64,000 nucleotides of DNA from positions 248,001 to 312,000 of the forward strand of contig NZ_LMUE01000012.1 in NCBI RefSeq assembly GCF_009766065.1. Reading direction: 5' to 3'. Below, piece by piece: positions 49,255 to 64,000 of this stretch. The position numbers were made by a program, and so were the translations under genes. The notes beneath the pieces were generated by a model that did not search any database, was not told where the DNA came from, and saw nothing but the letters and a program-made list of their open reading frames with translations. Source of the stretch: Dyella sp. S184 (lineage in GTDB: Bacteria; Pseudomonadota; Gammaproteobacteria; Xanthomonadales; Rhodanobacteraceae). Position 1 is the first letter of the stretch; each line of letters opens with the position of its first letter.

Positions 49255-49750
49255 TCCGGCTCGAGGAAGTTTGAGTTCCGCGATCAAGCCGATCTCCCCA
49301 GGAGAGCTTTAAACGCAAGAACATGCCATAGCGTAAGGAAACACACACATCCTGCGCGGCCGTATACCAGCGCAGGCAACGGCATCGACCCGGTTTTCCG
49401 ATTCCCTCTGGGTCAGAAGTAAGCCAGAATTCGTTCGGCATCGAAAGTTCTTGCTTGTACAAATTTTGTTGACAATATGTAAAAGAGGCATGATAAAGGG
49501 ACATCGCGCTTGGAAGAGTTGCGTGTCTTGATGGCAGGGCGTGAACGCCACAGCACATTTCAATGGCATTGATACACCCGCCACGGAAAGTATGCTGCGT
49601 GTTCACGTCGCGTTATTTGCCTGTTAGTATCGGTTGGGATTCGGGAGTTCGTGGGTCTGAAGTTCATCGGCCTGGGAGATCGGGCCAAGTCGCAGTTTTT
49701 GGGCAGAACGTTTTCTGACCCATGGCAAAAATTAATCGGAGGGTGTCTTT
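49255..49750 (+). other. 496-base gap with the promoter and long leader of the TonB receptor
   Basis: No coding frame here looks real. A strong sigma-70 promoter is at 49469-49497, leaving a leader of about 245 bases before the start. The leader is distinctly more AT-rich than the genes, suggesting room for regulation by an RNA structure or small RNA; no known riboswitch is recognised. A Shine-Dalgarno GGAGGG at 49738-49743 ends it. Confidence 0.5.
49469..49497 (+). promoter_or_regulatory. Sigma-70-type promoter of the TonB receptor gene
   Basis: A perfect TTGACA at 49469-49474 is followed, after 17 bases, by GATAAA at 49492-49497 (4/6 match). It is the only strong promoter seen ahead of the receptor. 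Confidence 0.6.
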
Positions 49751-52700
49751 ATGAAACTTGGGGTCACAAAACTTTCTTCGGCAGTCCGCCTGGCGCTTTC
49801 GCTGGGTGCTGTCATTGGTGCTGGCGCATCGGGTACGGCATTTGCCCAGGACACCAGCAGCCAGTCCACAACAACAACCACCACAACCAATAGCAATCAG
49901 CCCGACCAGCAGAAGGCGAAATCGCTGCAGACGGTCGTGGTCACCGGCTCGCTGATCCGCCGCGTGGATCTGGAAACGTCCAATCCGGTGGTCACCATTG
50001 ACCGCGCGCAGATTGAGGCGACCGGCAAGATGACGCTGGGCGACTTGGTCCAGCAGCTGCCGGCCATGACTGGCGGCAACGTCAACCCGCAGGTGAACAA
50101 CGGCGGTGGTACCGGCGGCTCCAGCATCAACCTGCGCGGTCTGGGTTCGGTTCGCACCCTGATCCTGGTCGACGGTCAGCGCGTGCTGAACACTGACCCG
50201 AACTCGATCCCCGCCAACATGATTGAGCGCATCGAAGTTCTGACCGACGGCGCCTCGGCGACCTACGGTTCCGACGCGATCGGCGGCGTGGTGAACTTCA
50301 TCCTGCGCAAGGACTACCAGGGCGCGCAGTTCACCACCAACGTCGGCGAATCCGACCACAACGACGGCGACCAGTCGGGCTACAGCTTCACTTTCGGACA
50401 GACGTCCGACAAGGGAAGCATCATGGGCGGCATCGAATACAACAAGCAGGATGGCGTGGAAGCCCAGAACCGCAAGTTCTCCAAGAACTCGGTTTCGGTC
50501 TACGGCACCAATGGCACTGGCCCATCCGCACCGCAGCCGGTCACGGCGAACGTCGGCGGCTCGTCCTCCTCGCCGTACGGTCACATCCAGCTGCCCGGTA
50601 GCACGACGGATCCAACAACCTTGGCCGGACAGTTCGGTTGCGGCTACGTGGCGCTGAACCCGGGTGCCAACAGCCAGGTGGTGAGCACGGCCAATTACCA
50701 CTGCTACCAGAACAACGGCGCGCATAGCGACAAGTACAACTACGCGGCGGTCAATCTGATCATGACCCCGCAGGAACGCACCAACGGGTTCGTGATGGGC
50801 ACCTACAACCTGAGCGACAACGTTCAGGCCTACATGAATGCCTACTTCAACAAGACCACCTCCGAATTCCAGCTGGCGCCGGCCGTGTACGGCAGCCCCT
50901 ATGGCGCGGACATCTCGGCGAACAACTACTACAACCCGTTCGGCGTGGAATTCGCCCAGGGCGCGAACACCTTCAATGCGCGTCTTGCATCGCTGGGCAA
51001 TCGCTCCTCGGCGTTCGGCGCCAACAACGGCCAGTTCAACACCGGTATCAAGGGCAGCTTCACGGTCCTCGACCAGAGCTGGAACTGGGATGTTGGCCTC
51101 GACTACGGCCATTCGGATACGGTCACCACCACCCGTGGCCTGCCCAACGGCAACAAGTTGTACACAGGCCCGTCGTACATGGGCACAGGCGGCCTGGCCT
51201 GCGTGCCGGGAGCCACGACCGCAGGTCAGGGTTGCCCGACCGGTGTGACGCCGGCCATGCTGCAGTTCAATCCATTCGACCTGTACTCGCCCGGTTCCGT
51301 GGCGGCGCTGCAGAATGCCGGCGTGCCCGCGGTCAGCGATTCGTACAGCCAGGAAAAGGTCTGGCATGCCGGCGTCAACGGTGGGCTGTTCGAGCTGCCG
51401 GCCGGCACGGTGCAGTTGGCCGCTGGTGCCGACTATCGCCAGGAACATGCCACCACGGTCGTCGACCCGCTGCTGAACATCGATCCGGCCACCGGCACCT
51501 GTACGCTGGGCAGCCAGTGCGGTTCCAGCCTGGCAGGCGGTTACAACGTGAAGGAAGTCTATGCGGAATCCTTCATTCCGGTGTTGTCCAACCTGCCTGG
51601 CGTGAAGTCGCTGAACGTCACGATCGGTGATCGTTACTCGCGCTTCAGCACCTTCGGCAGCACGAACGACTTCAAGTTCGCGCTGGAGTACAAGCCGATC
51701 GACGACCTGCTGCTGCGTGGCACGATGTCGCAGGTGTTCCGTGCCCCGAACATCGGTGAACTCTATGGCGCCCCGGCCAGTTCGGCGCCGCGAATCAGCT
51801 CCGATCCCTGCACGGGTTATACCGGTTCCCCGGTTGACCCGGCTTGCGTGAATGTGCCCACCAACGGCACCTTCGTGAACAACAACGTGGCCACGGGTAC
51901 GCAGCTCAACGCGATCACTTCCGGTTCCCTCTACGCGGGCTTCCCGATCAAGCCGGAGCAGGGCAAGTCGTTCGACCTGGGCGCGGTGTACAGCCCGTCG
52001 TGGGCACCGGGCCTGTCGGCGACCGTCGACGTATGGCACCTGTACCTGAACAATGACATCACCAGCGTCAATGCGCAGGAAGTGCTGAACCTGTGCAGTT
52101 CGGGTCAGACCGAATACTGCCCCGATATCACCCGCGCGGCTTCCGGCACCAGTCAGGGTCAGATCATCTCGATCCTGCAGCCGACAGCCAACCTCGGTAC
52201 CCTGAGCACCGGCGGCGTCGACTTCTCGCTGAACTACAAGCTGCCGCAGTTCGCGTTCGGCCAGTTCAACGTCGGCCTCCAATCCACCTACCTGAAGTAC
52301 TACAACCAGGATACCGCGCCGGGTACGGTTGGCGATGTCACCTTCCACGATGCGGGTCACTTCCTGTCGTACGGTTCGGCGCCGGAAGCTTCGTGCCCGG
52401 GTGCCGGTACCTGCCTGTTCCCCCGTTGGCGTGCACAGGCCTTCCTGGACTGGCAGCTGGGTAACTGGAGCGCTTCGTGGCGTCTGCGTTACATCGGTCG
52501 CTTCCAGATGGGCTCGCAGTCGCCGACGCAGGACGTGCACCCGGATGGTTCGTGCTACTACCAGGGCCAGCCGAACCCGGCTGGTGGCACGTATGCGTGC
52601 ACCATCCAAGGTGCCGTCTACAAGTATGGTGCGACCGTGTACAACGACGTGTCGTTCGGCTACAACATCGAGCCGCTCAACACGCGTATCGACTTCGGCG

Positions 52701-52828
52701 TCAACAACGCGTTCGACAAGCAGCCGCCGGTCATGTACGCGAACAACACGCTCAACGCCGATACCGATCCGAGCGATTTCGACCTGATGGGCCGCTACTT
52801 CTGGGCTCGCGTGACGGTCAAGTTCTAA
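49751..52828 (+). CDS. TonB-dependent outer-membrane receptor
   Basis: A 1025-residue outer-membrane protein. A signal peptide of about 34 residues ends 'GTAFAQ', followed by a Ser/Thr/Asn/Gln-rich lead (about 35-55). The plug begins 'LQTVVVTGSLIRR' (TonB-box-like region) and has 'SINLRGLGSVRTLILVDGQR' and 'EVLTDGASATYGSDAIGGVV'. A long beta-barrel of about 850 residues ends in Phe. Known role: TonB-powered uptake; the plug and barrel resemble Oar/carbohydrate-type receptors of Xanthomonads, but the ligand is unknown. GGAGGG lies 7 bases before the start. A strong terminator follows the stop, then sulfotransferase genes, the likely functional partners. Confidence 0.93.
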   Translation: MKLGVTKLSSAVRLALSLGAVIGAGASGTAFAQDTSSQSTTTTTTTNSNQPDQQKAKSLQTVVVTGSLIRRVDLETSNPVVTIDRAQIEATGKMTLGDLVQQLPAMTGGNVNPQVNNGGGTGGSSINLRGLGSVRTLILVDGQRVLNTDPNSIPANMIERIEVLTDGASATYGSDAIGGVVNFILRKDYQGAQFTTNVGESDHNDGDQSGYSFTFGQTSDKGSIMGGIEYNKQDGVEAQNRKFSKNSVSVYGTNGTGPSAPQPVTANVGGSSSSPYGHIQLPGSTTDPTTLAGQFGCGYVALNPGANSQVVSTANYHCYQNNGAHSDKYNYAAVNLIMTPQERTNGFVMGTYNLSDNVQAYMNAYFNKTTSEFQLAPAVYGSPYGADISANNYYNPFGVEFAQGANTFNARLASLGNRSSAFGANNGQFNTGIKGSFTVLDQSWNWDVGLDYGHSDTVTTTRGLPNGNKLYTGPSYMGTGGLACVPGATTAGQGCPTGVTPAMLQFNPFDLYSPGSVAALQNAGVPAVSDSYSQEKVWHAGVNGGLFELPAGTVQLAAGADYRQEHATTVVDPLLNIDPATGTCTLGSQCGSSLAGGYNVKEVYAESFIPVLSNLPGVKSLNVTIGDRYSRFSTFGSTNDFKFALEYKPIDDLLLRGTMSQVFRAPNIGELYGAPASSAPRISSDPCTGYTGSPVDPACVNVPTNGTFVNNNVATGTQLNAITSGSLYAGFPIKPEQGKSFDLGAVYSPSWAPGLSATVDVWHLYLNNDITSVNAQEVLNLCSSGQTEYCPDITRAASGTSQGQIISILQPTANLGTLSTGGVDFSLNYKLPQFAFGQFNVGLQSTYLKYYNQDTAPGTVGDVTFHDAGHFLSYGSAPEASCPGAGTCLFPRWRAQAFLDWQLGNWSASWRLRYIGRFQMGSQSPTQDVHPDGSCYYQGQPNPAGGTYACTIQGAVYKYGATVYNDVSFGYNIEPLNTRIDFGVNNAFDKQPPVMYANNTLNADTDPSDFDLMGRYFWARVTVKF

Positions 52829-52852
52829 TCCATCGGAACCTGCGTTAACCTT

Positions 52853-52887
52853 AAAGGCCGCGTGACGTGATCACGCGGCCTTTTTTT
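52853..52887 (+). terminator. Strong intrinsic terminator after the TonB receptor
   Basis: A perfect 13-bp stem (52853-52865 with 52871-52883), a 5-base loop, and a run of seven Ts (52881-52887). It ends only 6 bases before the ATG of the next gene, so it separates the receptor from the sulfotransferases. Confidence 0.9.
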
Positions 52888-52893
52888 CATGCC

Positions 52894-54729
52894 ATGACCC
52901 CAGAATCTACCCAATTGATTGTCGCCTCGATCACGGCAGGTGATCCGCTCGAGGCGGAGCGCCTGTGTCGTGCACAGCTGCGCGCGCAGCCGCAGGATGA
53001 AAATGTACTGGTATTGCTGGCGCTGAGCCTGCAACACCAGGGTCGCCTGGGCGAGGCGTTAGCCATCTACGCCCGTTTGACCGAGTTGTTTCCGGACAGC
53101 AGCCTGCATTGCTGCAATTACGCCACGGCATTGCGGGCTGCCGGCTCGCTGCCGGAAGCGGAGGCTGCCTATGTGGCGGCGATCCAGCGGGAGCCACAAA
53201 ACATCGAACCGAAAATCCAGCTGGGCTTGATGCTGCTGGATCGGCATGAATATCTGGCGGCTCGGGAGATGCTGCTCGACGCTTTCGAACTCGACCGCGA
53301 TCTGCCACGGGCCCGTATCCATGCCGCGCGCGCCTGCAGTCTGTGCCAGGACTTCCAAGGTGCCACGGACCTGCTGAAGCCGTGGCCTAACTGGTTGCCG
53401 CTGAATGACGATACCCTGCAGCTGGAATTGGCCCGGCAGCTGAACCTCTTGAGCGACGCCCCGGCGTCGGGGGCGTTGCTGGAAGATCTGGTCGGTAGGA
53501 ATCCGTCCCTGCCCGAGGCCCGATTGCTGCTGGCCGGCATATATGAGCGACTGAATCGGGTGGCCGATGCAGAGGCGATGTTGCAGTCGGTCGCCGCTGC
53601 CGCTGCGACGACATCCAGCAAGACACTTCACAACGAGGTCGATCACATGAGGGCCACGCTGGCCCTGCGCAGCGGTGATGTGGTTGCGGCACGGTCACTG
53701 CTGGAGTCTGGTGGCCCGCGGCATGCGAACGATTACACCCACTATTTCGACCTGGCCAAGGTTCACGACAAACTGGGCGAGACGCAACTCGCGATGCAGA
53801 CCCTGCAGTGCGCGCATGCGATCCAGGTAGAGGAACTCAAGCACGCCTCGCCGGAACATTTCGAAGCCGGTGCCTTGGCCCTGCCAGCGGCGATACCCAG
53901 AACAAGTGCCGAAGACCGTGCTCGCTGGCCGCAGTTGATCGCGCCGGATGCGCGCAATTCGCCGGTATTCATTGTGGGATTTCCGCGTTCCGGCACGACC
54001 TTGCTCGAGCAGATGCTGGATGCGCATCCGGACCTGCAGTCGATGGACGAGAATCCGTTCTTCAACCGACTGGCCGACAAGCTGCGCAACCACCATCCGG
54101 GCATCCTGTCGAATCTCGACCTGCTCCAGCAGCGTGATTGCGACGAATTGCGCAAACGCTATCTGATCATGGTTTCCGAGACGATCCAACGACGCTGGAG
54201 TTCGCAGCTGGTCGACAAGAACCCGCTGAACATGATGTGGGTACCCTTGATCACCCGGCTCTTTCCCGAGGCGAAGTTCGTCCTGGCCTTGCGCCATCCG
54301 TGCGACGTGATCCTGAGCTGCTACATGCAGAATTTCCGCTCCAGCATCCTGGGGGCGGCATGTTCCAGTCTCGAGCGGCTGGCCGGGGCCTACGTGCAGG
54401 CGATGGAATGCTGGCTGGAGGACGAACGGATTTTCCGGCCGCAGGTGCTGGTATCGCGCTACGAGGAACTCGTGACGGATTTTCCCGAACAGACCCGGCG
54501 CATCGCGAACTTCCTCGAACTGGAGGACGCCATCCCGATGCTGCAGTTCGACCAGCGTGCACGTGACAAGGGCTATATCGCGACGCCTAGCTACAGCCAG
54601 GTCATCGAGCCGGTAAACCGGAAGGGCCTGAACCGCTGGACCCGCTACCGCCACGAATTCGAGCCAGTGCTGCCGATACTCGAGCCGATGCTGAGACATT
54701 GGGGGTATTCAGCGGATGCGGCGTCTTGA
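52894..54729 (+). CDS. TPR-repeat sulfotransferase family protein (copy A)
   Basis: A 611-residue cytoplasmic-type protein with no signal peptide. About 10 TPR-like helical pairs (about 5-345) precede a sulfotransferase domain. The PAPS 5'-phosphosulfate loop is 'FIVGFPRSGTTLLEQML' (PRSGTT at 364-369) and the 3'-phosphate site is 'LALRHPCDVILSC' (Arg467, Ser475). The C-terminal 'VNRKGLNRWTRYRHEFEP' is typical of TPR-sulfotransferases. Expected reaction: sulfate transfer from PAPS to a hydroxyl on a protein, glycan or small molecule. The start is the ATG at 52894; a GTG at 52867 lies inside the terminator hairpin. Confidence 0.9.
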   Translation: MTPESTQLIVASITAGDPLEAERLCRAQLRAQPQDENVLVLLALSLQHQGRLGEALAIYARLTELFPDSSLHCCNYATALRAAGSLPEAEAAYVAAIQREPQNIEPKIQLGLMLLDRHEYLAAREMLLDAFELDRDLPRARIHAARACSLCQDFQGATDLLKPWPNWLPLNDDTLQLELARQLNLLSDAPASGALLEDLVGRNPSLPEARLLLAGIYERLNRVADAEAMLQSVAAAAATTSSKTLHNEVDHMRATLALRSGDVVAARSLLESGGPRHANDYTHYFDLAKVHDKLGETQLAMQTLQCAHAIQVEELKHASPEHFEAGALALPAAIPRTSAEDRARWPQLIAPDARNSPVFIVGFPRSGTTLLEQMLDAHPDLQSMDENPFFNRLADKLRNHHPGILSNLDLLQQRDCDELRKRYLIMVSETIQRRWSSQLVDKNPLNMMWVPLITRLFPEAKFVLALRHPCDVILSCYMQNFRSSILGAACSSLERLAGAYVQAMECWLEDERIFRPQVLVSRYEELVTDFPEQTRRIANFLELEDAIPMLQFDQRARDKGYIATPSYSQVIEPVNRKGLNRWTRYRHEFEPVLPILEPMLRHWGYSADAAS

Positions 54730-54843
54730 TTAATATCACCTGCATTATCGCTACCTGTGGCACCGACGTCTTTGCCAAGTCATTCTCAGGTAGCGTGCCG
54801 TTTGCCACCATATGATGAAGAAGCCCGCGCCGGACCTAGCTCG

Positions 54844-56397
54844 ATGAATGATTCCACCGTTCGCCGCTGGAGCCGGGCGCAGCGTTATCTTGCCGATGGG
54901 CAGATTGCAGCGGCACGGGTTGCCCTGGAATCCCTGTTGCAACGCGACCCGGGGCACACCCAGTCGTTGTTGGCGCTGAGCGGTGTCGCTCGGGCCGAGG
55001 GCCATGTTCGTGATGCCACGGAATACGCGCTGGCCGTAGCGCGGAACCTGCCGACTGATGGCAGCCTGATCGCGGAGGTGGCCGAAGTATTGCGACAGCT
55101 CGGCGAAACGGTGGCAGCGCGCCGCTGCCTGGATCATCCAGTGCTGGCGGAAACGAGCGATGGTTCCGTCCTGACGCAAATGGCCATCACGCGCAAGTTG
55201 CTTGGCGAGCATCCGGAGGCGTTGACGTTGCTCAATCGAGCCGCTGCCGTGGGCATGGGTACGGTCGACTTCCGGTTCGAGCGCGCGCAGGAGTTGATGT
55301 TCAATGGGCATATGGACGAGGCAGAAGCCGAGCTGCGTACGTGCCTGCGTTTGGCGCCATGTCACGGGCAGGCGGCGTTGACGCTGTCCCGCGCGCGCAG
55401 ACAGACACTTCAGGGCAATCACCTGCATGACTTGAGACAACGCCTGCAGGAAGTTGAACAGGGCACGGAGGATCATGGTGCACTCGAGTTTGCGCTTTAC
55501 AAGGAGCTGGAAGACCTTGCTCGTTATGACGAGGCTTGGAGCTCGTTGGCTCGCGCCAATGCCATCATGTATGCGCGACAGCAGCATGATCCGAGGCATG
55601 CGTGGCGTCTGTTCGATAGCCTGATCGATCGCTGCACACCAGAATTCCTGCAAGCCGGCGATATGGCCCATGACGGGCCCCAACCGATTTTCATCATCGG
55701 CATGCCTCGCTCGGGAACCACCTTGCTGGAGCGTGTGCTCAGCAATCATTCGCAGGTGACATCGGCCGGTGAGCTCAGCGAGTTCGGCCTGCAGTTGCGC
55801 TGGGTGGCCGATCACCGCATCACCCTGGATGAGCACATCGTGCAACGACTGCCCGATCTGGACTATGCCAAGATCGGGCGCCGTTATCTGGAGCAAACCC
55901 AGTGGCGCGCGCAAGGTGCGCGATTCTTCATCGACAAGATGCCACGCAACTGGATGGTCGCTGGGCTGATTCATCGTGCGTTGCCCCAGGCCCGCATCCT
56001 GAATCTGGTACGCGATCCGATGGATGTGTGCTTCTCCAACTTCCGTACGCTGGTGATGGGTGACCTGTTGCCATGGGGTTACGACTTGCACGCGCTGGCC
56101 GAGCATTATCTGCAGTATCGCCGCGTGCTTGATCATTGGCATGCGGCCATGCCCGGGCAGATTTTCGATGTGTCATACAGCGATTTGACGCGCGATCCGG
56201 AAGCGATGACACGCAAGGTGCTAGCCCACTGTGGACTGGAATGGGAAGCGGGTTGCGTCGACATAACCCGCAACGAGGCCGCGGTAGCCACACTCAGCCT
56301 GTCGCAGGTGCGCGAGCCCATTCATACGCGTTTCTTCGAGGAATGGCGGAATTACGAACAACAGCTGCAGCCGTTACGCCAGGCGATTACCAGATAG
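54844..56397 (+). CDS. TPR-repeat sulfotransferase family protein (copy B)
   Basis: A 517-residue protein. About five or six TPR-like repeats (about 8-210, 'ALLALSGVARAEGHVRDATE'-type, Ala-rich) lead to a sulfotransferase domain with 'PIFIIGMPRSGTTLLERVLS' (PRSGTT at 288-293) and 'LNLVRDPMDVCFSNFRTLV'. The C-terminal Arg-x-Pro-Ile-His motif ('SQVREPIHTRFFEEW') is shared with copies D, E and F. The start was set at 54844; the longer frame adds 29 residues overlapping intergenic sequence. It follows copy A by 114 bases and precedes the hydroxylase-sulfotransferase fusion. Confidence 0.9.
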   Translation: MNDSTVRRWSRAQRYLADGQIAAARVALESLLQRDPGHTQSLLALSGVARAEGHVRDATEYALAVARNLPTDGSLIAEVAEVLRQLGETVAARRCLDHPVLAETSDGSVLTQMAITRKLLGEHPEALTLLNRAAAVGMGTVDFRFERAQELMFNGHMDEAEAELRTCLRLAPCHGQAALTLSRARRQTLQGNHLHDLRQRLQEVEQGTEDHGALEFALYKELEDLARYDEAWSSLARANAIMYARQQHDPRHAWRLFDSLIDRCTPEFLQAGDMAHDGPQPIFIIGMPRSGTTLLERVLSNHSQVTSAGELSEFGLQLRWVADHRITLDEHIVQRLPDLDYAKIGRRYLEQTQWRAQGARFFIDKMPRNWMVAGLIHRALPQARILNLVRDPMDVCFSNFRTLVMGDLLPWGYDLHALAEHYLQYRRVLDHWHAAMPGQIFDVSYSDLTRDPEAMTRKVLAHCGLEWEAGCVDITRNEAAVATLSLSQVREPIHTRFFEEWRNYEQQLQPLRQAITR

Positions 56398-56404
56398 TGT
56401 ATTT

Positions 56405-56464
56405 ATGAAAGAAGACGGTCGTTTCATTCTTGAGTGGCTGGAGCGCGCATTCCAGCTGTGGTGA
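56405..56464 (+). CDS. Possible 19-codon leader peptide ahead of the fusion gene
   Basis: ATG AAA at 56405 opens a short frame that reads 'MKEDGRFILEWLERAFQLW' and stops at 56462-56464. Its stop overlaps the ATG of a second short frame (TGATG). No clear Shine-Dalgarno site precedes it. It may be a leader peptide or a chance frame; it is reported because of the overlap chain. Confidence 0.25.
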   Translation: MKEDGRFILEWLERAFQLW

Positions 56465-56565
56465 TGAAATCGTCGACTACCATGCAGCTGCTACGACAAA
56501 GAAGCTCATTCAATTCCGCGCCTGTGGCGTGCGGCTCAATCAATTCGAGTGGATACAAAAAGTGA
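56464..56565 (+). CDS. Possible 33-codon peptide overlapping the fusion-gene start
   Basis: ATG at 56464 opens a 33-residue Ser/Asn-rich frame ending 'SINSSGYKK', stopping at 56563-56565. The stop overlaps the GTG start chosen for the hydroxylase-sulfotransferase (GTGA), and its own start overlaps the previous short frame's stop. It contains one Tyr and several Asn/Ser residues. Nothing shows that it is translated; the competing N-terminal extension of the fusion gene covers the same bases. Confidence 0.25.
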   Translation: MKSSTTMQLLRQRSSFNSAPVACGSINSSGYKK

Positions 56566-58412
56566 AACTGCCCGTCCCATTTATCCAGTTGCCACTGCAA
56601 TTCGATGCCAAGGTGCTCGCGCAGGAGATCGCCGCGTTTGGCGAAGACGCCTGGCACGAGCATCCGCAGAAATATCCCGGCAATCTGTGGTTGCCCTTGA
56701 TTGCGGCCAATGGCGACCCTGACAACGAATCCTTTTTGGGTGTGATGCGACCAACTCCGTATCTTTTGCAGTGTCCATACCTGATGCAGGTATTGTCGCG
56801 AATTGGTGCCGTATGGGGGCGGACTCGCCTGATGAAGCTTACGGGTCAGGCCGAGGTCACTCCGCATTTCGATATCAACTACTACTGGCGTGCACGCGCA
56901 CGCGTGCACGTGCCCATTTTGACCAAGCCGACAGTGCGGTTCATCTGCGGAGAAGGCGAGGTGAATATGGGGCCGGGCGAGTGCTGGATTTTCGATACCT
57001 GGCGCCAGCATCAAGTGATCAATGGTGACGACGACGAACGGATTCATCTCGTGGCTGACACTGTCGGCAGCGATGAGTTCGGGGAGCTGGTAAGGGACGG
57101 GCAGATGCCGGGCAACCATGTGCCGGAGGGTTGGCAGGCAGAGGCCGTTGCACCGACTGACGAACTGCGACCCGCATTACGTTATGAATCGGTCAATCTG
57201 CCTGCGGTCATGACGCCCTGGGAGATGCGTGAGCACATCACCTTTCTCCTCAGCGAGGTGCGTCCGCATCCAGAACTTGAACCAGCGAAGCAGGTTACGT
57301 CGCGCTTTCTTGCCGCCTGGCAGGCGTTATGGTCGGAATATGGTACCGATCCGGCTGGTGTGCCTGCCTATCGCAAAGCGTTGAACTCATACGAACAGTG
57401 GCTGAAGAATTTTGCAGCGTCGCTGCAATTGATCAATGACTCGCCGTTTGTGGTCGCGCTGCGTCTGATGGTCCTGTCGGTGGCGATTGCCGACAACGAT
57501 CGCGCCTCCAGTGGCGATGAATTACGCCAGAATGCCATCCACGGAATGCCGAGTGCGCGCTTGGAAGAGAGTGGTCGCGATCCACTCTATGATCGCCCGA
57601 TATTCATCATTTCGCCACCCCGTTCCGGCTCCACCTTGTTGTTTGAGACCCTGGCGAAGGCTCGGGGGCTTTACACGATTGGCCGCGAAAGTCATGCACT
57701 GATCGAAGGTACACCTGGCCTCAGCGCAAGCGAGCTGGGTTATGACTCCAACAGACTTGATGCAACTGCAGCGACGCCAGGGCTGATCGAAGCATTGCGC
57801 AGCCGGTTTTTCGCGGAACTGGCGGACAGGGATGGCCACGCACCGGGGCAGCGCCCGATCCGGATGCTCGAGAAAACACCCAAGAACGCATTGCGCATAC
57901 CTTTCCTGGCAAAGGTTTTCCCGGAGGCGCAGTTCATTTACCTGCATCGCGATCCGCGCGAAACCTTGAGTAGCATGATCGAGGCTTGGCAATCCGGCGG
58001 ATTCCGCACTTATGCGAACCTTCCCGGCTGGACTGGTTTGCCGTGGTCCCTGTTGCTGGTGCCCGGTTGGCGCGAACTGATTGGGCGGCCGTTGCCTGAG
58101 ATCGTGGCAGCACAGTGGGATACCACTACACGCATCCTGCTCGACGATCTTGCTGCGCTTCCGCCGGAACGTTGTCATGTTGTGCGCTATGACGCGTTCA
58201 TTGCAGATCCAGAAACAGAGATGTCTCGACTGTGCGGTGTGCTCGGACTTGACTGGGATCGTTCACTCGACGCCGCGCTGCCACTTTCGCGTTACACCGT
58301 GACCGAGCCTGCTCCAGGCAAGTGGCGTCGGCATGCGGATCTGATCAACCAGGTTCTTCCCGGTTTGCAGGCTACCCTTGATCGCGCCGAACGGTTTATT
58401 CGCGTTGGATGA
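56562..58412 (+). CDS. Aspartyl/asparaginyl beta-hydroxylase fused to a sulfotransferase
   Basis: A 616-residue bifunctional protein. Residues 1-230 are an aspartyl/asparaginyl beta-hydroxylase (Fe(II)/2-oxoglutarate): iron ligand His102 in 'TPHFDINYYW', the family 'RARVHVPILTKPTVRFICG', second ligand His150 in 'FDTWRQHQVING', and 2-oxoglutarate Arg160 in 'ERIHLVADTVG'. Residues about 340-610 are a sulfotransferase with 'IISPPRSGSTLLFETLA' (352-358 PPRSGST) and 'YLHRDPRETLSSM' (Arg463). The start is a GTG at 56562, where family proteins begin; an open frame back to a TTG at 56430 would add 44 residues of no family sequence. By eye the codons are more AT-rich than in neighbours, hinting at transfer. 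Confidence 0.88.
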   Translation: MKLPVPFIQLPLQFDAKVLAQEIAAFGEDAWHEHPQKYPGNLWLPLIAANGDPDNESFLGVMRPTPYLLQCPYLMQVLSRIGAVWGRTRLMKLTGQAEVTPHFDINYYWRARARVHVPILTKPTVRFICGEGEVNMGPGECWIFDTWRQHQVINGDDDERIHLVADTVGSDEFGELVRDGQMPGNHVPEGWQAEAVAPTDELRPALRYESVNLPAVMTPWEMREHITFLLSEVRPHPELEPAKQVTSRFLAAWQALWSEYGTDPAGVPAYRKALNSYEQWLKNFAASLQLINDSPFVVALRLMVLSVAIADNDRASSGDELRQNAIHGMPSARLEESGRDPLYDRPIFIISPPRSGSTLLFETLAKARGLYTIGRESHALIEGTPGLSASELGYDSNRLDATAATPGLIEALRSRFFAELADRDGHAPGQRPIRMLEKTPKNALRIPFLAKVFPEAQFIYLHRDPRETLSSMIEAWQSGGFRTYANLPGWTGLPWSLLLVPGWRELIGRPLPEIVAAQWDTTTRILLDDLAALPPERCHVVRYDAFIADPETEMSRLCGVLGLDWDRSLDAALPLSRYTVTEPAPGKWRRHADLINQVLPGLQATLDRAERFIRVG

Positions 58413-58452
58413 CCCCCGAACGGTGGCCTGGCGTTTGATGCGTGGCCGTCAG

Positions 58453-58474
58453 CCGTGTGGTCACACGGCCCGTT
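58453..58474. terminator. Possible hairpin between convergent genes
   Basis: GCCGTGTG and CACACGGC stand back to back with almost no loop in the 107-base gap between the fusion gene and copy D. No T-run follows, so a role in stopping both transcripts is only a guess. Confidence 0.3.
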
Positions 58475-58519
58475 CACGACACAACCCGGCACGGGGCGAC
58501 GAGTCGGCCAGAAGGTGAC

Positions 58520-59953
58520 TCAGAATCGCGTCAGCTCCGGCACGTAGGGGAAGTAATTCTTCCAGCGTCCCACCGACGAGTTGTATATCGGCTGGCGGGC
58601 CTGCCATACGCTGGCCGTGGTGATCGCCGCGGTCGAGATGGCGGTTGTCCCTGGTGCGACGACTGTTGGCAGGTCGACAAAAGCTCGCAGTGTTCCAAGG
58701 GTCGATTCGGGATCGGCAACCATCGCTTCGTAGTCGAGGCTGTGCACCGGCACGCGCAGACGTTGCTGCCAATGTTGCATCAGTCTGTCATGGCTGCGCA
58801 TGAAGTCGGCGATGTCGTCGAGATCGCTGGCAAAACCGTACTGCGGATGCGCGAAACTCTGCGACCAGATGGACAACGCGGTATCGCGCGGGTCGCGTCG
58901 GCAGTGGATGATACGGGCCTGCGGGAACAGCGTTGCGATCAGGTCGAGGTAACGGAAGTTGTTCGGGTTCTTGTCGATGTACCAGCGCACGCGGGGATCA
59001 TCCTGGACGGCGTGCACCCGGTACAGCTCAGCGGCCTGACGCAATGCGCCGGCATCGCGCATGAGGTTACCCGACTGCAGCTGTTCGGCGATGAAGCCGA
59101 GCATCGGCAGCTCGCCACGGTCGCGGACATCCGGATGCCCGGCGAGTCGCGTCGCCGCCAGGGTGGTGCCGCTGCGCGGCAGGCCGACGATGAAGATCGG
59201 CACGAAATCAGACGTCGACGGCAAGGGCGTCTCGAGCGTGCGCAGCTGCATGCGGGCGTCCAGCCATTGCGCCCATGCCTCGCGTGACCACGGTTGTGCC
59301 TGCCCCGATAGCTGGTTGGCGCCGCGCAGGGTCTGTGCGGCGTTGGCATAGTCCGCGATGTCGTCGTACGCCTTGGCGAGGCCGAAGCCGGTCACCGCGC
59401 GGGCATGCAGGGAATAGGCGGAGTTTCCGAAATGGGCGATGAGACGCGCAAAGTCCGGATCGGCGCGATCGGTGTAGCGCCGGGTGGCGGCCAGCGCACC
59501 AAGTACAAACCAGTTATCGAGGTCGACGCCGCCCTCCAGCGCTGTGTAGTAATGCGTGCGCGCGAGCTCGAACTCGCCCAGTTCGCGCGCCAGGTTGCCA
59601 GCCAGTACATGTAGTCCGGCGTCGGCGTGGCCGAGCGCGATGGATTCCTCGCAAAGGGCCGCGGCTAGCGCCTGGCGTTGGCATTGCTGGATGAACTGGG
59701 CGCATCGCATCGTGATCGCCGGCTGCAGGCCCGCGTGGCGGCACCAATCCGCCATCAACTGACTGGCGGCATTGAGCTGACCCTGGCTTTGCAGCAGCTG
59801 GGCGAGCAGCGGTGTCGCATCGGGGTGCATCGGATGATGCGCGAGGATGTCGTCCAGCAGCGTGCGGGCAGGTTCCACCAGCCCCTGCTGCCAGAGTGCC
59901 TGGGCGGTGCGAAAGCGCTCGGCTTCGTCGGGTGGGAACGTCGTCGGCGTCAC
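58520..59953 (-). CDS. TPR-repeat sulfotransferase family protein (copy D)
   Basis: A 477-residue protein: TPR-like helices (about 1-235, 'ERFRTAQALWQQGLVEPART'), then a sulfotransferase domain with 'PIFIVGLPRSGTTLAATRLA' (PRSGTT at 259-264), 'CRRDPRDTALSIWSQSF' and the C-terminal 'WQARQPIYNSSVGRWKNY'. It closely resembles copy E, including 'GLAKAYDDIADYANAAQTL' versus 'GKAHDDIADYAQAAHYL'. The start is uncertain: GTG at 59953 matches where repeats begin, while an ATG at 60091 would add 46 residues and overlap copy E. No clear Shine-Dalgarno site supports either. Confidence 0.85.
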   Translation of the reverse strand: MTPTTFPPDEAERFRTAQALWQQGLVEPARTLLDDILAHHPMHPDATPLLAQLLQSQGQLNAASQLMADWCRHAGLQPAITMRCAQFIQQCQRQALAAALCEESIALGHADAGLHVLAGNLARELGEFELARTHYYTALEGGVDLDNWFVLGALAATRRYTDRADPDFARLIAHFGNSAYSLHARAVTGFGLAKAYDDIADYANAAQTLRGANQLSGQAQPWSREAWAQWLDARMQLRTLETPLPSTSDFVPIFIVGLPRSGTTLAATRLAGHPDVRDRGELPMLGFIAEQLQSGNLMRDAGALRQAAELYRVHAVQDDPRVRWYIDKNPNNFRYLDLIATLFPQARIIHCRRDPRDTALSIWSQSFAHPQYGFASDLDDIADFMRSHDRLMQHWQQRLRVPVHSLDYEAMVADPESTLGTLRAFVDLPTVVAPGTTAISTAAITTASVWQARQPIYNSSVGRWKNYFPYVPELTRF

Positions 59954-60056
59954 GTCAGCGGAAGTCAGCCAGTGGTCAATGAGAGAGTATCGCGGCTGCA
60001 GCCCGTCGTGCGCCAGAGCGGTGTGTCGGCGGCCAAGGAATGCGGTGATCGCACGC

Positions 60057-61697
60057 TCACTTGTCTGGAATACGCAGCAGTTCCGGAACATGGGATGCGT
60101 AGAAACGCCAGCGCGCCACCGAGTGCTGATGGATCGGCTGGCGCGCCTGCCATGCGCTGGCGGTGCTGATTGCATGGTCGCGACTCGGGCTGCCGAGCAG
60201 GTCGTGCTCGGGCAGTCCGAGCCAGCGTGCCAGTTCGCCCAGACAGGAGGCCGGATCGGCGATGAGTTCCTCGTAACGTACGGTACGGATCGACGCGGCG
60301 TGGCGCACGCGTGAATGCGCATGCAGGCGCTCACAACCCTGGATGAGCGCTGCGATATCGCCGAAGTCGTAGGCGTAGTCGTGTGCGTGGTCATGAAACG
60401 ACTGCGACCACAGCGAAAGTGCGGTGTCGCGCGGGTTACGTCGACAATGGATGATGCGCGCGTTCGGCCACAACGTGAGGATCAGATCGATATGCAGCAG
60501 GTTCAGTGGCTGCTTGTCGATGAACCAGCGTGCGCTGGAGTCGTCCTGGCGCAGCTGCGCCGCATAGGTGCTTGCGGCTTGCTCGAACGCGGCCGGCTCC
60601 CTGGTGCCGGTCTGTTCGAACCGTCGGGCCAGTGTCGCCAGCCAGCCCAACTCGCCGCGATTGCAGACCAGCGGATGGCGCGCGAGCAGCTCGGCCAGCA
60701 GCGTGGTGCCGGAGCGTGGCACGCCGACAATGAACAGCGGCGTCCATTCGCTCGTGGCGGCCAGTTGGAATGGGGACGGTCTGGCTGCCAGGCGTGCCTC
60801 GACGAGGCGCCGCCAGTGCTTGCGCGACCAGGTCGAGCGCACATGTGCGAGAGCGTTGGCCTGGTGCAGATAGTGTGCGGCCTGCGCATAGTCGGCGATG
60901 TCGTCGTGAGCCTTGCCCAGGGCGAATAGCGTCGTGATGCGTGTTTTCTCGCTCAAGTCCGGTCGTTGCAGCACGTCCCGGAACAACTGGAAATCCGGAT
61001 GGCCGCCGTCCTTGTAACGCTGCAGACCCGACAGGCCGATCGGAATATTCCATTCCACGGCTTGCGAGCTGTGCGCGAGCGAGAAGGCATACCGCTCGCG
61101 CACGCGTTCGAATTGACCGAGCTGGATACCCAGCATGCCGGCATAGGCATGAATCCGCGGATCGGTGCAGCCTGCCATGATCTCTGCCTCGCAGATGGCC
61201 GCGGCATCCGATGTCCGCTGGATATCGTCGAGCATTTCCACGGCCTGGATGACCGTGTCGGCATCCAGTCGCGCATGTCCAAACAGATGGCGAATGGCAC
61301 CGGCCGCACCATGCATGCGGCCTTGCTGGCACAGCAGAGTTGCCAGCAGGAAGGTAGCGGCCGCGTGCGTCGGCTGTTGTGCGAGCAACTCGTGCAGCAG
61401 CGCTTCGGCTGCCGCCGATTCACCGCGTTGCTGCAGGTTGCCCGCCAGCGCGAAACGCAGGTCGACCGAGCCGGGATGCGCGACGAGTGCTGCGGACAGC
61501 ACGACCTGCGCCGTATCGGTGTCGGAGCGCAGCACCAGTGCGCGCGCGCAGGCCAGCCACTCCGCTTCGGACGCACCAGCGAGGGCATCCAGCAGTACGC
61601 GTCGAGCAGCCTGTGTGCGACCTTGCGCGCGCTGTAGTTCGTAGACGGCCAGATGGCGGCCGCTGGTATCGGGTGTCGGGGTGAAGGCCCCGTTCAT
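60057..61697 (-). CDS. TPR-repeat sulfotransferase family protein (copy E)
   Basis: A 546-residue protein with about eight TPR-like repeats (about 10-300) and a sulfotransferase domain: 'LFIVGVPRSGTTLLAELLA' (PRSGTT at 327-332), 'CRRNPRDTALSLWSQSF' and 'WQARQPIHQHSVARWRFY' at the end. Its start overlaps the stop of copy F by 4 bases (ATGA), so E follows F in one transcript, and copy D follows E by about 100 bases. It shares several stretches with D, suggesting tandem duplication. No signal peptide. Confidence 0.9.
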   Translation of the reverse strand: MNGAFTPTPDTSGRHLAVYELQRAQGRTQAARRVLLDALAGASEAEWLACARALVLRSDTDTAQVVLSAALVAHPGSVDLRFALAGNLQQRGESAAAEALLHELLAQQPTHAAATFLLATLLCQQGRMHGAAGAIRHLFGHARLDADTVIQAVEMLDDIQRTSDAAAICEAEIMAGCTDPRIHAYAGMLGIQLGQFERVRERYAFSLAHSSQAVEWNIPIGLSGLQRYKDGGHPDFQLFRDVLQRPDLSEKTRITTLFALGKAHDDIADYAQAAHYLHQANALAHVRSTWSRKHWRRLVEARLAARPSPFQLAATSEWTPLFIVGVPRSGTTLLAELLARHPLVCNRGELGWLATLARRFEQTGTREPAAFEQAASTYAAQLRQDDSSARWFIDKQPLNLLHIDLILTLWPNARIIHCRRNPRDTALSLWSQSFHDHAHDYAYDFGDIAALIQGCERLHAHSRVRHAASIRTVRYEELIADPASCLGELARWLGLPEHDLLGSPSRDHAISTASAWQARQPIHQHSVARWRFYASHVPELLRIPDK

Positions 61698-63277
61698 GGA
61701 CTGTCGCCTTGCTGCCACGGCAGCAGCCCGAGTGCCATCCGCAGCGGATCGAGCAGGGCGCCGTAGCGTGGTGCGCGCGCCGTGTCGTGCAGCGGCTGGC
61801 GCACTTGGGTGGCGCTGGGCGAACGCACTTCGCGCTGGTTCTCATGAAAGCTCAGACAGGCCGGCTCGAACGGCAGGCTGCAGAAATCCAGCAAGCGACG
61901 GATGTGGACTTCCGGATCGGCCAACAATTGCTCGTATTCGTGCTCGAACACCTGCGACGGATGCAGCGTATGCCAGTGGCAAACGCTGCGGTCGAAGTCG
62001 CGCCAGAAGGCCGCCAGATCGTCGAACGTGCGCGTGTACTCGTTGCCGGCCAGATACTGGCGATAGCACGAGAAGCAGGTCTCCAGCGGGTCACGCCGGC
62101 ACGCGATGATGCGCGCCCCCGGCAGCATGGCGCGGATCGCGCCGATGTACATCCAGTTGTTCGGTAGCTTGTCGGTGAAGACAGGACGCTGCCGACGCCA
62201 GTGCGCGGTGCGCTCCAGATAGCGCCGTCCCAAGCGCTCCCAGTCAGCTGGCTGCATCGCGTGCACCCATTGCGGAAACGGTTGGCCGCGGCGACGCGAT
62301 TCCTCGCCCAGCACCTGTGGCAGGTCAGGCAGTTCGCCGGCACCCTCGACCGAGCTATGCGAGGCGAGGATCTGTTCGACCAGGGTCGAACCGGATCGCG
62401 GCAGGCTGACGATGAAGACGACTTCCTTGCCAAGCGCTTCCGCAGCGGCTGCAAGCGGCGGCAGGAAAGCCTGGTTGGCCGCCGAGATTCCCTTGGAAAA
62501 GGCGTTTGCATCCCACTGCTGCCGGCGCCTGGCGATGGCGTTGGCCTGGGCGAGTGCAGCCAGTGATTCATCCAGGCGACCGTTATCGTCCAGTGCCTTG
62601 GCCAGCGCGAAACCCATCGCGATCAGGTCGTTTTCGCTGGCCCGCGGCTGTTGCATCGCCGCTTGCATGTGCGCGATGTCGTCATCGTTGAAGCGGGTGG
62701 TCCTGAGGTCGGCTAGCCCCCACCAGGCCTGGCCAGCCCAGGGCTGTTCCACGAGTACTTTGCGGTATTCCATCGTGGCTTCCACGGTCTGGCCGCGGGT
62801 ACGTAGCATGTCAGCCAGCAGGGCGCGTGCGTCCACATGATCGGGCGCCAGCGCAACGGCGCGCTGCAAGGCAATCACGGCCTCGTCGTTGCGTACGCAG
62901 CGGGTCAGCATGACACCGAGGTTGTACCAGGCGATGGCCAGGCCGGGTTTCAGTTCGCAGCAGCGACGCAGTGCGGCAATCGCGGCATCGAATGCTCCTG
63001 CATTGCCCAGCAAGGTACCGAGAGTGTTGTGGTAAAGCGCGTCCTGCGGGCGTTGCGCCAAGGCCTGTTGCATCGTGCTTACGGCCTGTTGGGAACGACC
63101 GCGCAGACTGTGGATGCCGGCCTGCATCCGCAGGACTTCAGGGTGCTGCGGATCTGATGCGGAAGCGCTGGCCAGGTGGCTTTCGGCCACATCCACCCGG
63201 CCCGCTTCGAGTGCTTCGCCGGCGACCATGATGTGCATGCGGGTGTCGGGGCTCAATCCATGCAGGCGAGGAGTCAT
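61694..63277 (-). CDS. TPR-repeat sulfotransferase family protein (copy F)
   Basis: A 527-residue protein and first gene of the minus-strand run F-E-D. N-terminal TPRs are clear ('ALYHNTLGTLLGNAGAFDAA', 'IAWYNLGVMLTRCVRNDEAV'), spanning about 20-270. The sulfotransferase domain carries 'FIVSLPRSGSTLVEQILASH' (PRSGST at 293-298), 'FTDKLPNNWMYIGAIRAMLP' and 'ACRRDPLETCFSCYRQYL'. The C-terminal Arg-Gln-Pro-Leu-His motif is present. The start at 63277 begins 'MTPRLHGLSPDTR', with a 201-base divergent gap to the partial TPR gene. Confidence 0.9.
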   Translation of the reverse strand: MTPRLHGLSPDTRMHIMVAGEALEAGRVDVAESHLASASASDPQHPEVLRMQAGIHSLRGRSQQAVSTMQQALAQRPQDALYHNTLGTLLGNAGAFDAAIAALRRCCELKPGLAIAWYNLGVMLTRCVRNDEAVIALQRAVALAPDHVDARALLADMLRTRGQTVEATMEYRKVLVEQPWAGQAWWGLADLRTTRFNDDDIAHMQAAMQQPRASENDLIAMGFALAKALDDNGRLDESLAALAQANAIARRRQQWDANAFSKGISAANQAFLPPLAAAAEALGKEVVFIVSLPRSGSTLVEQILASHSSVEGAGELPDLPQVLGEESRRRGQPFPQWVHAMQPADWERLGRRYLERTAHWRRQRPVFTDKLPNNWMYIGAIRAMLPGARIIACRRDPLETCFSCYRQYLAGNEYTRTFDDLAAFWRDFDRSVCHWHTLHPSQVFEHEYEQLLADPEVHIRRLLDFCSLPFEPACLSFHENQREVRSPSATQVRQPLHDTARAPRYGALLDPLRMALGLLPWQQGDSP

Positions 63278-63478
63278 GTCTGCTCTTTTGGCATCAGGTG
63301 AATGGCGGCGTGCAACTTGCTGTATCTGATCTAACGCGGCGCGATGCAAGCCATGTTTCAAAACGACGCCTTGCCAGCCAAGGCAATCGAATGCGTCACC
63401 GCGTATTATGCCGGTTAGTTCAGCCTGCTGCGGCGTTGTATTGGGGCTCCCGCAGCCCATCCGGTAGTGAAGCCAGCA
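63278..63478. promoter_or_regulatory. Divergent intergenic region between the two sulfotransferase/hydroxylase arms
   Basis: A 201-base gap that must drive copy F-E-D on one side and the TPR protein on the other. It holds a dyad, GCCTTG and CAAGGC five bases apart at 63369-63385, and a TATTAT that could be a -10 site for the rightward gene about 70 bases before its start. No convincing -35 is seen. Confidence 0.35.
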
Positions 63479-64000
63479 ATGAAGAATGAGTCAGACCCGC
63501 GCTCTGCGGATTATCGTGAACAGGCCCGCGCAGGCTTGCGCCAGGGCGACTTGGCGCTTGCCGAGCAAGCCTATTCGGATTTGCTCGAGACCGATCCCGA
63601 CGATCTCGAGGCGCTGCGGCAATTGGCCAACATCCAGCTTGCCCGCGGCGCGGCGAACCGGGCCGTCGAGCTGCTTGTTATCGCAGATCGTGCGCATCCC
63701 GGCGATGCCGTGACGCTGCATCAGTTGGGTGTGGCGCGGATGACGAGTGGCGATTTTCGGGGTGCGGTCGCCGATTTGCGGCGCGGGCTCGAGATTGCGC
63801 CGAACATGTTCGTGGCGCGCTTGCGCCTGGGAATGTTGCTGGATCAATTGGGAGAGAAGTACGAGGCCCTGGCCACCTCTTTCATGGCGATCAATGCGGC
63901 GCAGGCGCATGGGCGCTGGCTCAGTGACGAGACGACGGCGCCGGAATATCGGGATGCCGTGAAGAGTGCCATGCAATATGTCAATGTCGGCAGGCATGAT
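63479..64000 (+). CDS. TPR protein, N-terminal part of a probable TPR-aspartyl/asparaginyl beta-hydroxylase
   Basis: ATG at 63479 opens a frame that runs, still open, to the window end (174 codons). TPR repeats are clear: 'LRQGDLALAEQAYSDLLETD', 'VTLHQLGVARMTSGDFRGAV', and 'LRLGMLLDQLGEKYEAL'. The last part, 'AQAHGRWLSDETTAPEYRDA' followed by 'MQYVNVGRHD', resembles the linker that precedes the hydroxylase domain in TPR-AspH proteins I know, but the catalytic domain itself is beyond the window. The call rests on that linker and on the neighbouring genes. Divergent from copy F. Confidence 0.6.
   Translation, partial: MKNESDPRSADYREQARAGLRQGDLALAEQAYSDLLETDPDDLEALRQLANIQLARGAANRAVELLVIADRAHPGDAVTLHQLGVARMTSGDFRGAVADLRRGLEIAPNMFVARLRLGMLLDQLGEKYEALATSFMAINAAQAHGRWLSDETTAPEYRDAVKSAMQYVNVGRHD

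Follow-up and report, generated by a model that had tools for sequence, protein, structure and literature searches.

A recurrent set of sulfotransferases, oxygenases and a TonB-dependent receptor in Dyella and beyond suggests chemical tailoring of the receptor or its ligand

Introduction

Why would a bacterium keep six sulfotransferase domains and two oxygenase domains beside a single TonB-dependent receptor (TBDR)? The question is raised by a gene cluster of Dyella sp. S184, lying in a stretch of 64,000 nucleotides that was analysed as a whole and is referred to here as the window (G000:C6:248001-312000). Between positions 49751 and 64000 of the window, and for 801 bases past its edge, are found one TBDR, five proteins joining tetratricopeptide repeats (TPR) to a sulfotransferase (ST) domain (TPR-STs, the first of which is termed st1), one oxygenase-sulfotransferase fusion and one TPR protein with an AspH-type oxygenase domain (TPR-AspH). 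Protein sulfation and Asp/Asn hydroxylation are seen mainly as modifications of the eukaryotic secretory pathway; in bacteria, to our knowledge, sulfated proteins are documented in few cases, RaxX being one. An earlier note on this DNA had proposed that the enzymes of the cluster work together on a secreted or outer-membrane polypeptide.

The comparisons described below suggest that this locus is a large example of a gene set that recurs in smaller versions elsewhere and would serve the chemical tailoring of the receptor or its ligand. The enzyme families are each known, while their recurrent union with a TBDR subfamily appears to be undescribed; a categorically new function is possible. In the openly licensed literature of PubMed Central, a scope that leaves aside subscription papers and preprints, we found no TBDR reported with TPR-STs or AspH enzymes, and the term TPR sulfotransferase gave no match in six spellings.

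Results

The gene set recurs in other genomes

Searches of named genomes with five TPR-AspH orthologues found at least 517 relatives; the 80 best matches were retained, and genes within 9 kb of these were called with custom-built profiles. At 44 of these 80 loci, which are not independent because they were chosen as the most similar and many come from Rhodanobacter and Dyella, the TPR-AspH gene is accompanied by both a TBDR and a TPR-ST, at five by a TBDR only, at five by a TPR-ST only and at 26 by neither. When only the 51 loci with 8 kb or more on each side are counted, the numbers become 34, 3, 2 and 12. Twelve of the 80 also have a 2OG-Fe(II) oxygenase from a different family nearby.

Within the genus, the full set of TBDR, fusion, TPR-AspH and five TPR-STs is present in the host genome (G000) and in G017, and the same set with four TPR-STs in G035, where the TBDR runs off the examined stretch, and in G028. 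Many loci consist of one TBDR, one TPR-ST and one TPR-AspH, so the number of domains, which had been read as a pointer to several sites or substrates, is not essential. Four loci whose labels or affinity place them outside the Lysobacterales, L135 (Steroidobacter), L138 (Nevskia) and the gammaproteobacterial metagenome-assembled genomes L140 and L144, share the order TBDR, TPR-ST, 2OG oxygenase, TPR-AspH, oxygenase-ST fusion, and also carry a further small AspH-type gene.

In a sample of 299 genomes of the phylum, 87 contain a match to st1 with an E-value of 1e-20 or better. Forty st1-homologue loci were taken from the listed phylum-wide matches, mostly top-ranked; 12 of them have a TBDR in the stretch, in eight cases no more than 350 bases from the ST gene. 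Two of the 12, L226 and L228, belong to another class of the same phylum. L226 combines an AspH-domain gene, which has no TPR above the Pfam threshold, with a TBDR and two TPR-STs, and L228 places three different TPR-fused or TPR-bearing enzymes (a TPR-2OG oxygenase, a TPR-AspH and a TPR-ST) beside one TBDR. Conserved linkage, on which the earlier note had made its proposal depend, is thus present in the Lysobacterales, in records labelled Steroidobacter or Nevskia, and also in another class.

Several of these loci have features of their own. The small AspH-type gene adjoins a gene for a protein of 230-270 aa (L135 13529-14859, L138 2739-4089, L140 13110-14464 and L144 13049-14383), with no Pfam match in the two proteins scanned and with a FLHLHKSGGTF-like start, which we take to be reminiscent of a sulfotransferase loop. 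At L048 15318-17021 (G049:C18) the TBDR, TPR-ST and TPR-AspH adjoin a 2OG oxygenase and a methyltransferase; the N-terminal part of the latter has no Pfam name and could be a candidate peptide-binding domain. At L106, L110, L112, L117, L122 and L134 the TPR-AspH gene lies by glnA/ntrBC-like genes, often behind a divergent TPR-sulfotransferase, with no TBDR; a different role for the TPR-AspH genes on the glnA/ntrBC side is possible.

Sulfotransferase linkage in a receptor subfamily

Close homologues of the window's TBDR (n = 45, the window's included; at least 41% identity over long stretches) were compared with distant ones (n = 20; 32-40% identity). An ST is linked to 34 of the 45 close receptors, with eight unlinked and three undecided at contig ends, as opposed to four of the 20 distant ones (P = 1e-5 without the undecided cases and 7e-5 with these counted as unlinked, kinship being ignored). 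The best match per genome alone had given 17 of 18 close receptors as linked; the figure of 34 of 45 comes from all matches.

The host genome contains 26 TBDR plug matches and 20 sulfotransferase matches, the latter consolidated manually to 17 genes, which lie at 12 loci. A TBDR directly adjoins the sulfotransferase at five of these 12 loci, which exceeds chance (binomial P between 4e-7 and 7e-7, assuming a genome of 3300-3700 genes). Two further neighbour pairs of TBDR and TPR-ST (L064 and L065, G000:C19) have TBDRs from a different subfamily, and the pairing therefore extends past the subfamily under study. A sulfotransferase gene at L061 7606-9524 (G000:C3:283752-284647) lies in three overlapping pieces in different frames and is probably broken. 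First-look TPR-sulfotransferase candidates number 119 to 251 in G165, G169, G177 and G225, against 35 in the host genome.

These counts bear on the prosaic explanation that expanded families with unrelated substrates have piled up by chance in a genomic hot spot. The host genome is rich in TPR-STs as well as in TBDRs, strands are mixed and gene order differs among G000, G017, G035 and G028, all of which would fit a pile-up; it is opposed by the recurrence of the set at other sites, in other orders and in another class, by the control with close and distant receptors, and by the TBDR adjacency at the ST loci of the host. Chance accumulation is largely refuted by this linkage, and we consider it very unlikely.

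Pairwise distances between TBDRs correlate with those between their st1 partners (r = 0.905 over 32 loci, with none of 2000 permutations as high). The correlation is 0.62 between TBDR and TPR-AspH and 0.68 between st1 and TPR-AspH, and the partial correlation of TBDR and st1 given TPR-AspH is 0.84. The two loci of the Soil772 strain, L080 and L092, each group with the same partners in the TBDR and ST comparisons. Judged from these distances, TBDR and ST are inherited as a pair; the correlation is silent on what the ST acts on. As a TBDR occurs with an ST alone (L059, L062) and with TPR-AspH alone (L137, L150), it is the TBDR that is the shared partner. The idea that hydroxylation supplies the hydroxyls for sulfation does not find support here: AspH and ST are separable in many loci, and preparation of the same site by one enzyme for the other is therefore not indicated.

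Relatives and active sites of the enzymes

The six ST domains of the window keep the P-R-S-G and R...P...S positions when aligned. In st1 the motifs for binding of 3'-phosphoadenosine-5'-phosphosulfate (PAPS) are invariant in 38 relatives (5' motif P373, R374, S375, G376, T377 and T378; 3' motif R476 and S484), as is E395, which lies between them and aligns with the second glutamate of the GEET stretch of protein-tyrosine sulfotransferases (TPSTs), a residue that is presumably the catalytic base in TPST. The motif patterns hold in 45 of 45 members of the st1 family and, for the second ST family, in 46 of 50 (5') and 25 of 50 (3', with a narrow pattern). The nearest solved relatives of st1 are TPSTs (E 4.2e-16; profile E 3.9e-28; around 250 residues), and heparan and other sulfotransferases rank far behind. 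APS kinase, which is required for PAPS, is encoded in the host genome.

The nearest solved relative of the TPR-AspH oxygenase domain is human AspH (E 5.2e-28). H348, H393 and R403 are invariant in five orthologues and align with the two histidines and the arginine of the human enzyme, and the corresponding sequence patterns are matched by 56 of 67 and by 65 of 67 relatives. Of the human arginine pair, which we take to bind the substrate carboxylate, one is matched by R355 and the second is replaced by V. Taken at the level of these conserved residues, the cluster proteins look functional.

The oxygenase of the fusion had been regarded as a further Asp/Asn hydroxylase. It has a PF05118 domain, with H146, D148, H194 and R204 (numbered on the open reading frame, ORF) invariant in seven homologues as H-x-D plus a second H; its nearest solved oxygenase matches are not human AspH but L-proline cis-4-hydroxylase (E 4e-9), entries for proline oxidase and one named Beta-hydroxylase, for which reason the Asp/Asn label exceeds the evidence. 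A second oxygenase-ST fusion of the host (L067 8587-10425, G000:C19) stands alone beside thiC and a ferritin-like gene with no TBDR near, and a lone fusion has similar surroundings in several genomes of the genus (also L042-L046, L057 and L058). In two genomes of the order (L050 8522-11533 and L055 8679-11855) the fusion has a third, C-terminal domain, DUF4915/TIGR03032.

Some of these relatives would fit enzymes that act on surface glycans or lipids, like carbohydrate sulfotransferases, LpxO and OlsC, with a TBDR that profits from or senses the changed surface. The best NCBIfam matches, all below cut-off, are OlsC (122.5 bits) and LpxO (76.6 bits) for TPR-AspH and the nodulation sulfotransferase NoeE for several STs, and the ST domain of the fusion is at roughly equal distance from CurM-type and from tyrosine sulfotransferases. 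However, the curated cut-offs for OlsC and LpxO (450 and 500 bits) are missed by far, the best solved relative of TPR-AspH is the human enzyme, its TPR part is, as we understand those families, unlike LpxO or OlsC, and TBDR and ST co-vary closely. An action on glycans or lipids is thus doubtful, if less so than a chance pile-up.

The receptor

The TBDR has both a plug (PF07715, 84.2 bits, cut-off 23.9) and a barrel (PF00593, 92.6 bits, cut-off 27). By a simple hydropathy measure it is the only one of the eight cluster proteins with a signal-peptide-like start, its N-terminal hydropathy of 1.95 being the top value among them. Two candidate acceptor sites were considered and rejected. Low-complexity segments similar to the Thr/Ser-rich segment behind the signal peptide are found in many of the TBDRs of the genome, linked or unlinked. 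The C-terminal loop motif PP..[YF].[NG], picked post hoc, marks the TBDR subfamily and not ST linkage; in an earlier sampling it was present in 51 of 71 linked and three of 27 unlinked rows, and linked TBDRs of other subfamilies are without it.

Gene inventory of the cluster

The gene calls in Table 1 rest on Pfam domain matches, all above the Pfam cut-offs, and they bear out the receptor, TPR-sulfotransferases and fusion that had been listed from the letters of the window. A second hydroxylase, which had been suspected, is real, since the TPR frame continues past the window and carries a full PF05118 domain. The TBDR and st1 are separated by 38 bases. The fusion probably begins at the GTG at 56562 rather than at 56430, as four of six aligned homologues begin at or near that point. 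The true start of TPR-sulfotransferase 3 probably lies a good distance downstream of 60394, as the longest ORF runs more than 300 bases into the neighbouring gene. The set is flanked on the left by a phosphorylase-family gene (PF01048, Pfam) and on the right by ORFs that resemble housekeeping genes, as judged from reading their translations only.

Table 1. Genes of the cluster, in window positions unless a contig position is given.
Gene	Position	Strand	Domain evidence
TBDR, 1025 aa	49751..52828	+	PF07715 E 1.1e-23; PF00593 E 6.3e-26; signal-peptide-like N-terminus
st1 (TPR-sulfotransferase 1), 620 aa	52867..54729	+	PF13469 E 7.4e-36 + TPR
TPR-sulfotransferase 2	54757..56397	+	PF13469 E 3.4e-50 + TPR
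Oxygenase-sulfotransferase fusion	56562..58412 (longest ORF from 56430)	+	PF05118 + PF13469
TPR-sulfotransferase 3	58520..60052 (longest ORF to 60394; 5' end uncertain)	-	Sulfotransfer_3 PF13469 E 1.6e-36 + TPR
TPR-sulfotransferase 4	60057..61718	-	PF13469 E 6.4e-36 + TPR
TPR-sulfotransferase 5	61694..63460	-	PF13469 E 4.7e-42 + TPR
TPR-AspH, 444 aa, first 178 aa inside window	63467..64000, on to G000:C6:312801	+	TPR inside; PF05118 E 1.5e-47 beyond

Search for a precursor peptide and a biosynthetic core

TBDRs are known importers, and the enzymes may instead modify a self-made peptide or small molecule that the TBDR takes up, alone or as its metal complex; sulfation and hydroxylation would then make the ligand recognisable to the producer's own receptor only. 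Amide or peptide hydrolases adjoin the TBDR sets in L048 (S15), L226 (an aspartyl protease) and L228 (a penicillin amidase), which would suit such a ligand, as would a table for Pontixanthobacter relatives in PMC10040529, whose entries place a lasso-peptide B2 protein, sulfotransferases, an aspartyl beta-hydroxylase and PqqD under neighbouring cluster numbers. On the other side, no conserved small ORF was found in the gaps between cluster genes at 41 loci, the groups inspected being antisense to conserved genes or of low complexity, nor did the gap ahead of the TBDR yield a conspicuous one at six loci; a precursor peptide in the gaps was accordingly dropped. Pfam revealed no nonribosomal peptide synthetase, cyclase, exporter, radical-SAM or lasso B1/B2 domain among the cluster proteins, and no type I secretion domain in those scanned, genes outside the cluster not having been scanned for the latter. 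The long TPR arrays also suggest a protein partner. Identities of the RaxXST, lasso-peptide and lipid-hydroxylase types were rejected on the missing precursor, secretion and core genes and on the missed OlsC and LpxO cut-offs. Modification of a ligand is somewhat unlikely by our estimate, and nearly as open as modification of the receptor.

Discussion

The leading reading, to which we give a probability of roughly 0.45, is that cytoplasmic TPR enzymes modify the TBDR before its export. The set would comprise cytoplasmic, PAPS-using TPR-STs and 2-oxoglutarate oxygenases (TPR-AspH and others) that serve one TBDR subfamily. The TPR superhelix of each enzyme would bind the unfolded TBDR precursor in the cytoplasm; st1 would transfer sulfate from PAPS onto a hydroxyl side chain, probably of tyrosine, and TPR-AspH would beta-hydroxylate Asp or Asn. 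Sec would then export the tailored receptor for insertion in the outer membrane, where ligand binding or recognition by phage or neighbours may be altered by the groups it has gained. We infer substrate, residues, order of steps and benefit; the genes, their motifs, their linkage and the correlated divergence of TBDR and st1 are observed.

The receptor is a plausible substrate for several reasons. TPST and AspH, the relatives of st1 and TPR-AspH, act on polypeptides, which favours a polypeptide substrate here, and protein chains are common ligands of TPR arrays. Among the cluster proteins, a signal-peptide-like start is confined to the TBDR. The linkage of the set, the linkage of close TBDRs, the TBDR-ST distance correlation, the adjacency at ST loci of the host, the TBDR's place as the partner common to ST-only and AspH-only pairs, the APS kinase gene of the host and the L228 set likewise favour modification of the receptor. 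Sulfation needs PAPS and oxygenation needs 2-oxoglutarate, and because both are cytoplasmic, modification before export is the simplest reading.

A number of observations weigh against it. No TBDR or TPR-ST accompanies TPR-AspH at 26 of the 80 loci, many of which adjoin glnA and ntrBC genes, and 28 of the 40 phylum-wide st1-homologue loci are without a TBDR. The eight unlinked close receptors come from G022 (five), G004 (two) and G038 (one), of which G022 and G004 hold linked copies too; six of the eight keep the PP..[YF].[NG] motif in the fuller sampling, while 20 of 71 linked receptors miss it, and no acceptor residue stood out in the search of the TBDR. The distance correlation is confounded by species descent, lipid hydroxylases head the NCBIfam ranking of TPR-AspH, and we know of no precedent for cytoplasmic modification of a Sec-exported outer-membrane barrel.

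In its wider form, the proposal is of a dedicated machinery of TPR-guided sulfotransferases and hydroxylases that attaches groups covalently to outer-membrane receptors before export and so sets which ligands, phages and rivals are recognised, a counterpart in function to TPST and AspH, with one to six STs, in several Gammaproteobacteria-like orders and another class; this we offer tentatively, as a little short of an even chance. By linking such enzymes to one receptor subfamily, the set would supply many bacterial examples of these modifications together with a defined candidate substrate. Should receptors be tailored, models of nutrient uptake and of the entry of phages and bacteriocins via TBDRs would need to take the tailoring into account; if the ligand is modified instead, the sets would be signs of an undescribed class of metabolites or peptides that are sulfated and hydroxylated.

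Comparison with known systems

RaxX and RaxST of Xanthomonas had been put forward as a precedent. The part of this that stands is a TPST-like, PAPS-dependent bacterial ST in the same order, whose product is exported; the substrate of RaxST is a precursor of 60 residues, with a type I secretion system alongside (PMC6637879). The Dyella cluster, by contrast, combines a TBDR and oxygenases with six ST domains and TPR arrays, and the parallel is a weak one because neither a precursor-like small ORF nor a secretion gene was found at the locus. The lasso cluster of the Pontixanthobacter relatives, as tabulated in PMC10040529, resembles the set in bringing sulfotransferases and an AspH-type enzyme together, and differs in its lasso B2 protein and PqqD; the genes of the Dyella cluster encode neither a cyclase nor a B2 domain.

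Human AspH (PDB 5apa, 5jqy; PMC6817910) likewise joins TPR to an oxygenase domain, with two histidines and an arginine that align. TPR-AspH of the window is in contrast bacterial, has neither a signal-peptide-like start nor an EGF-like substrate domain, and does not keep one of the two presumed substrate-binding arginines. TPSTs, which act in the Golgi, are not known to carry TPR arrays, unlike st1 with its TPR. It is nevertheless TPST1 and TPST2 (PDB 3ap1, 5wri and others) that provide the best solved match of st1 over its whole domain.

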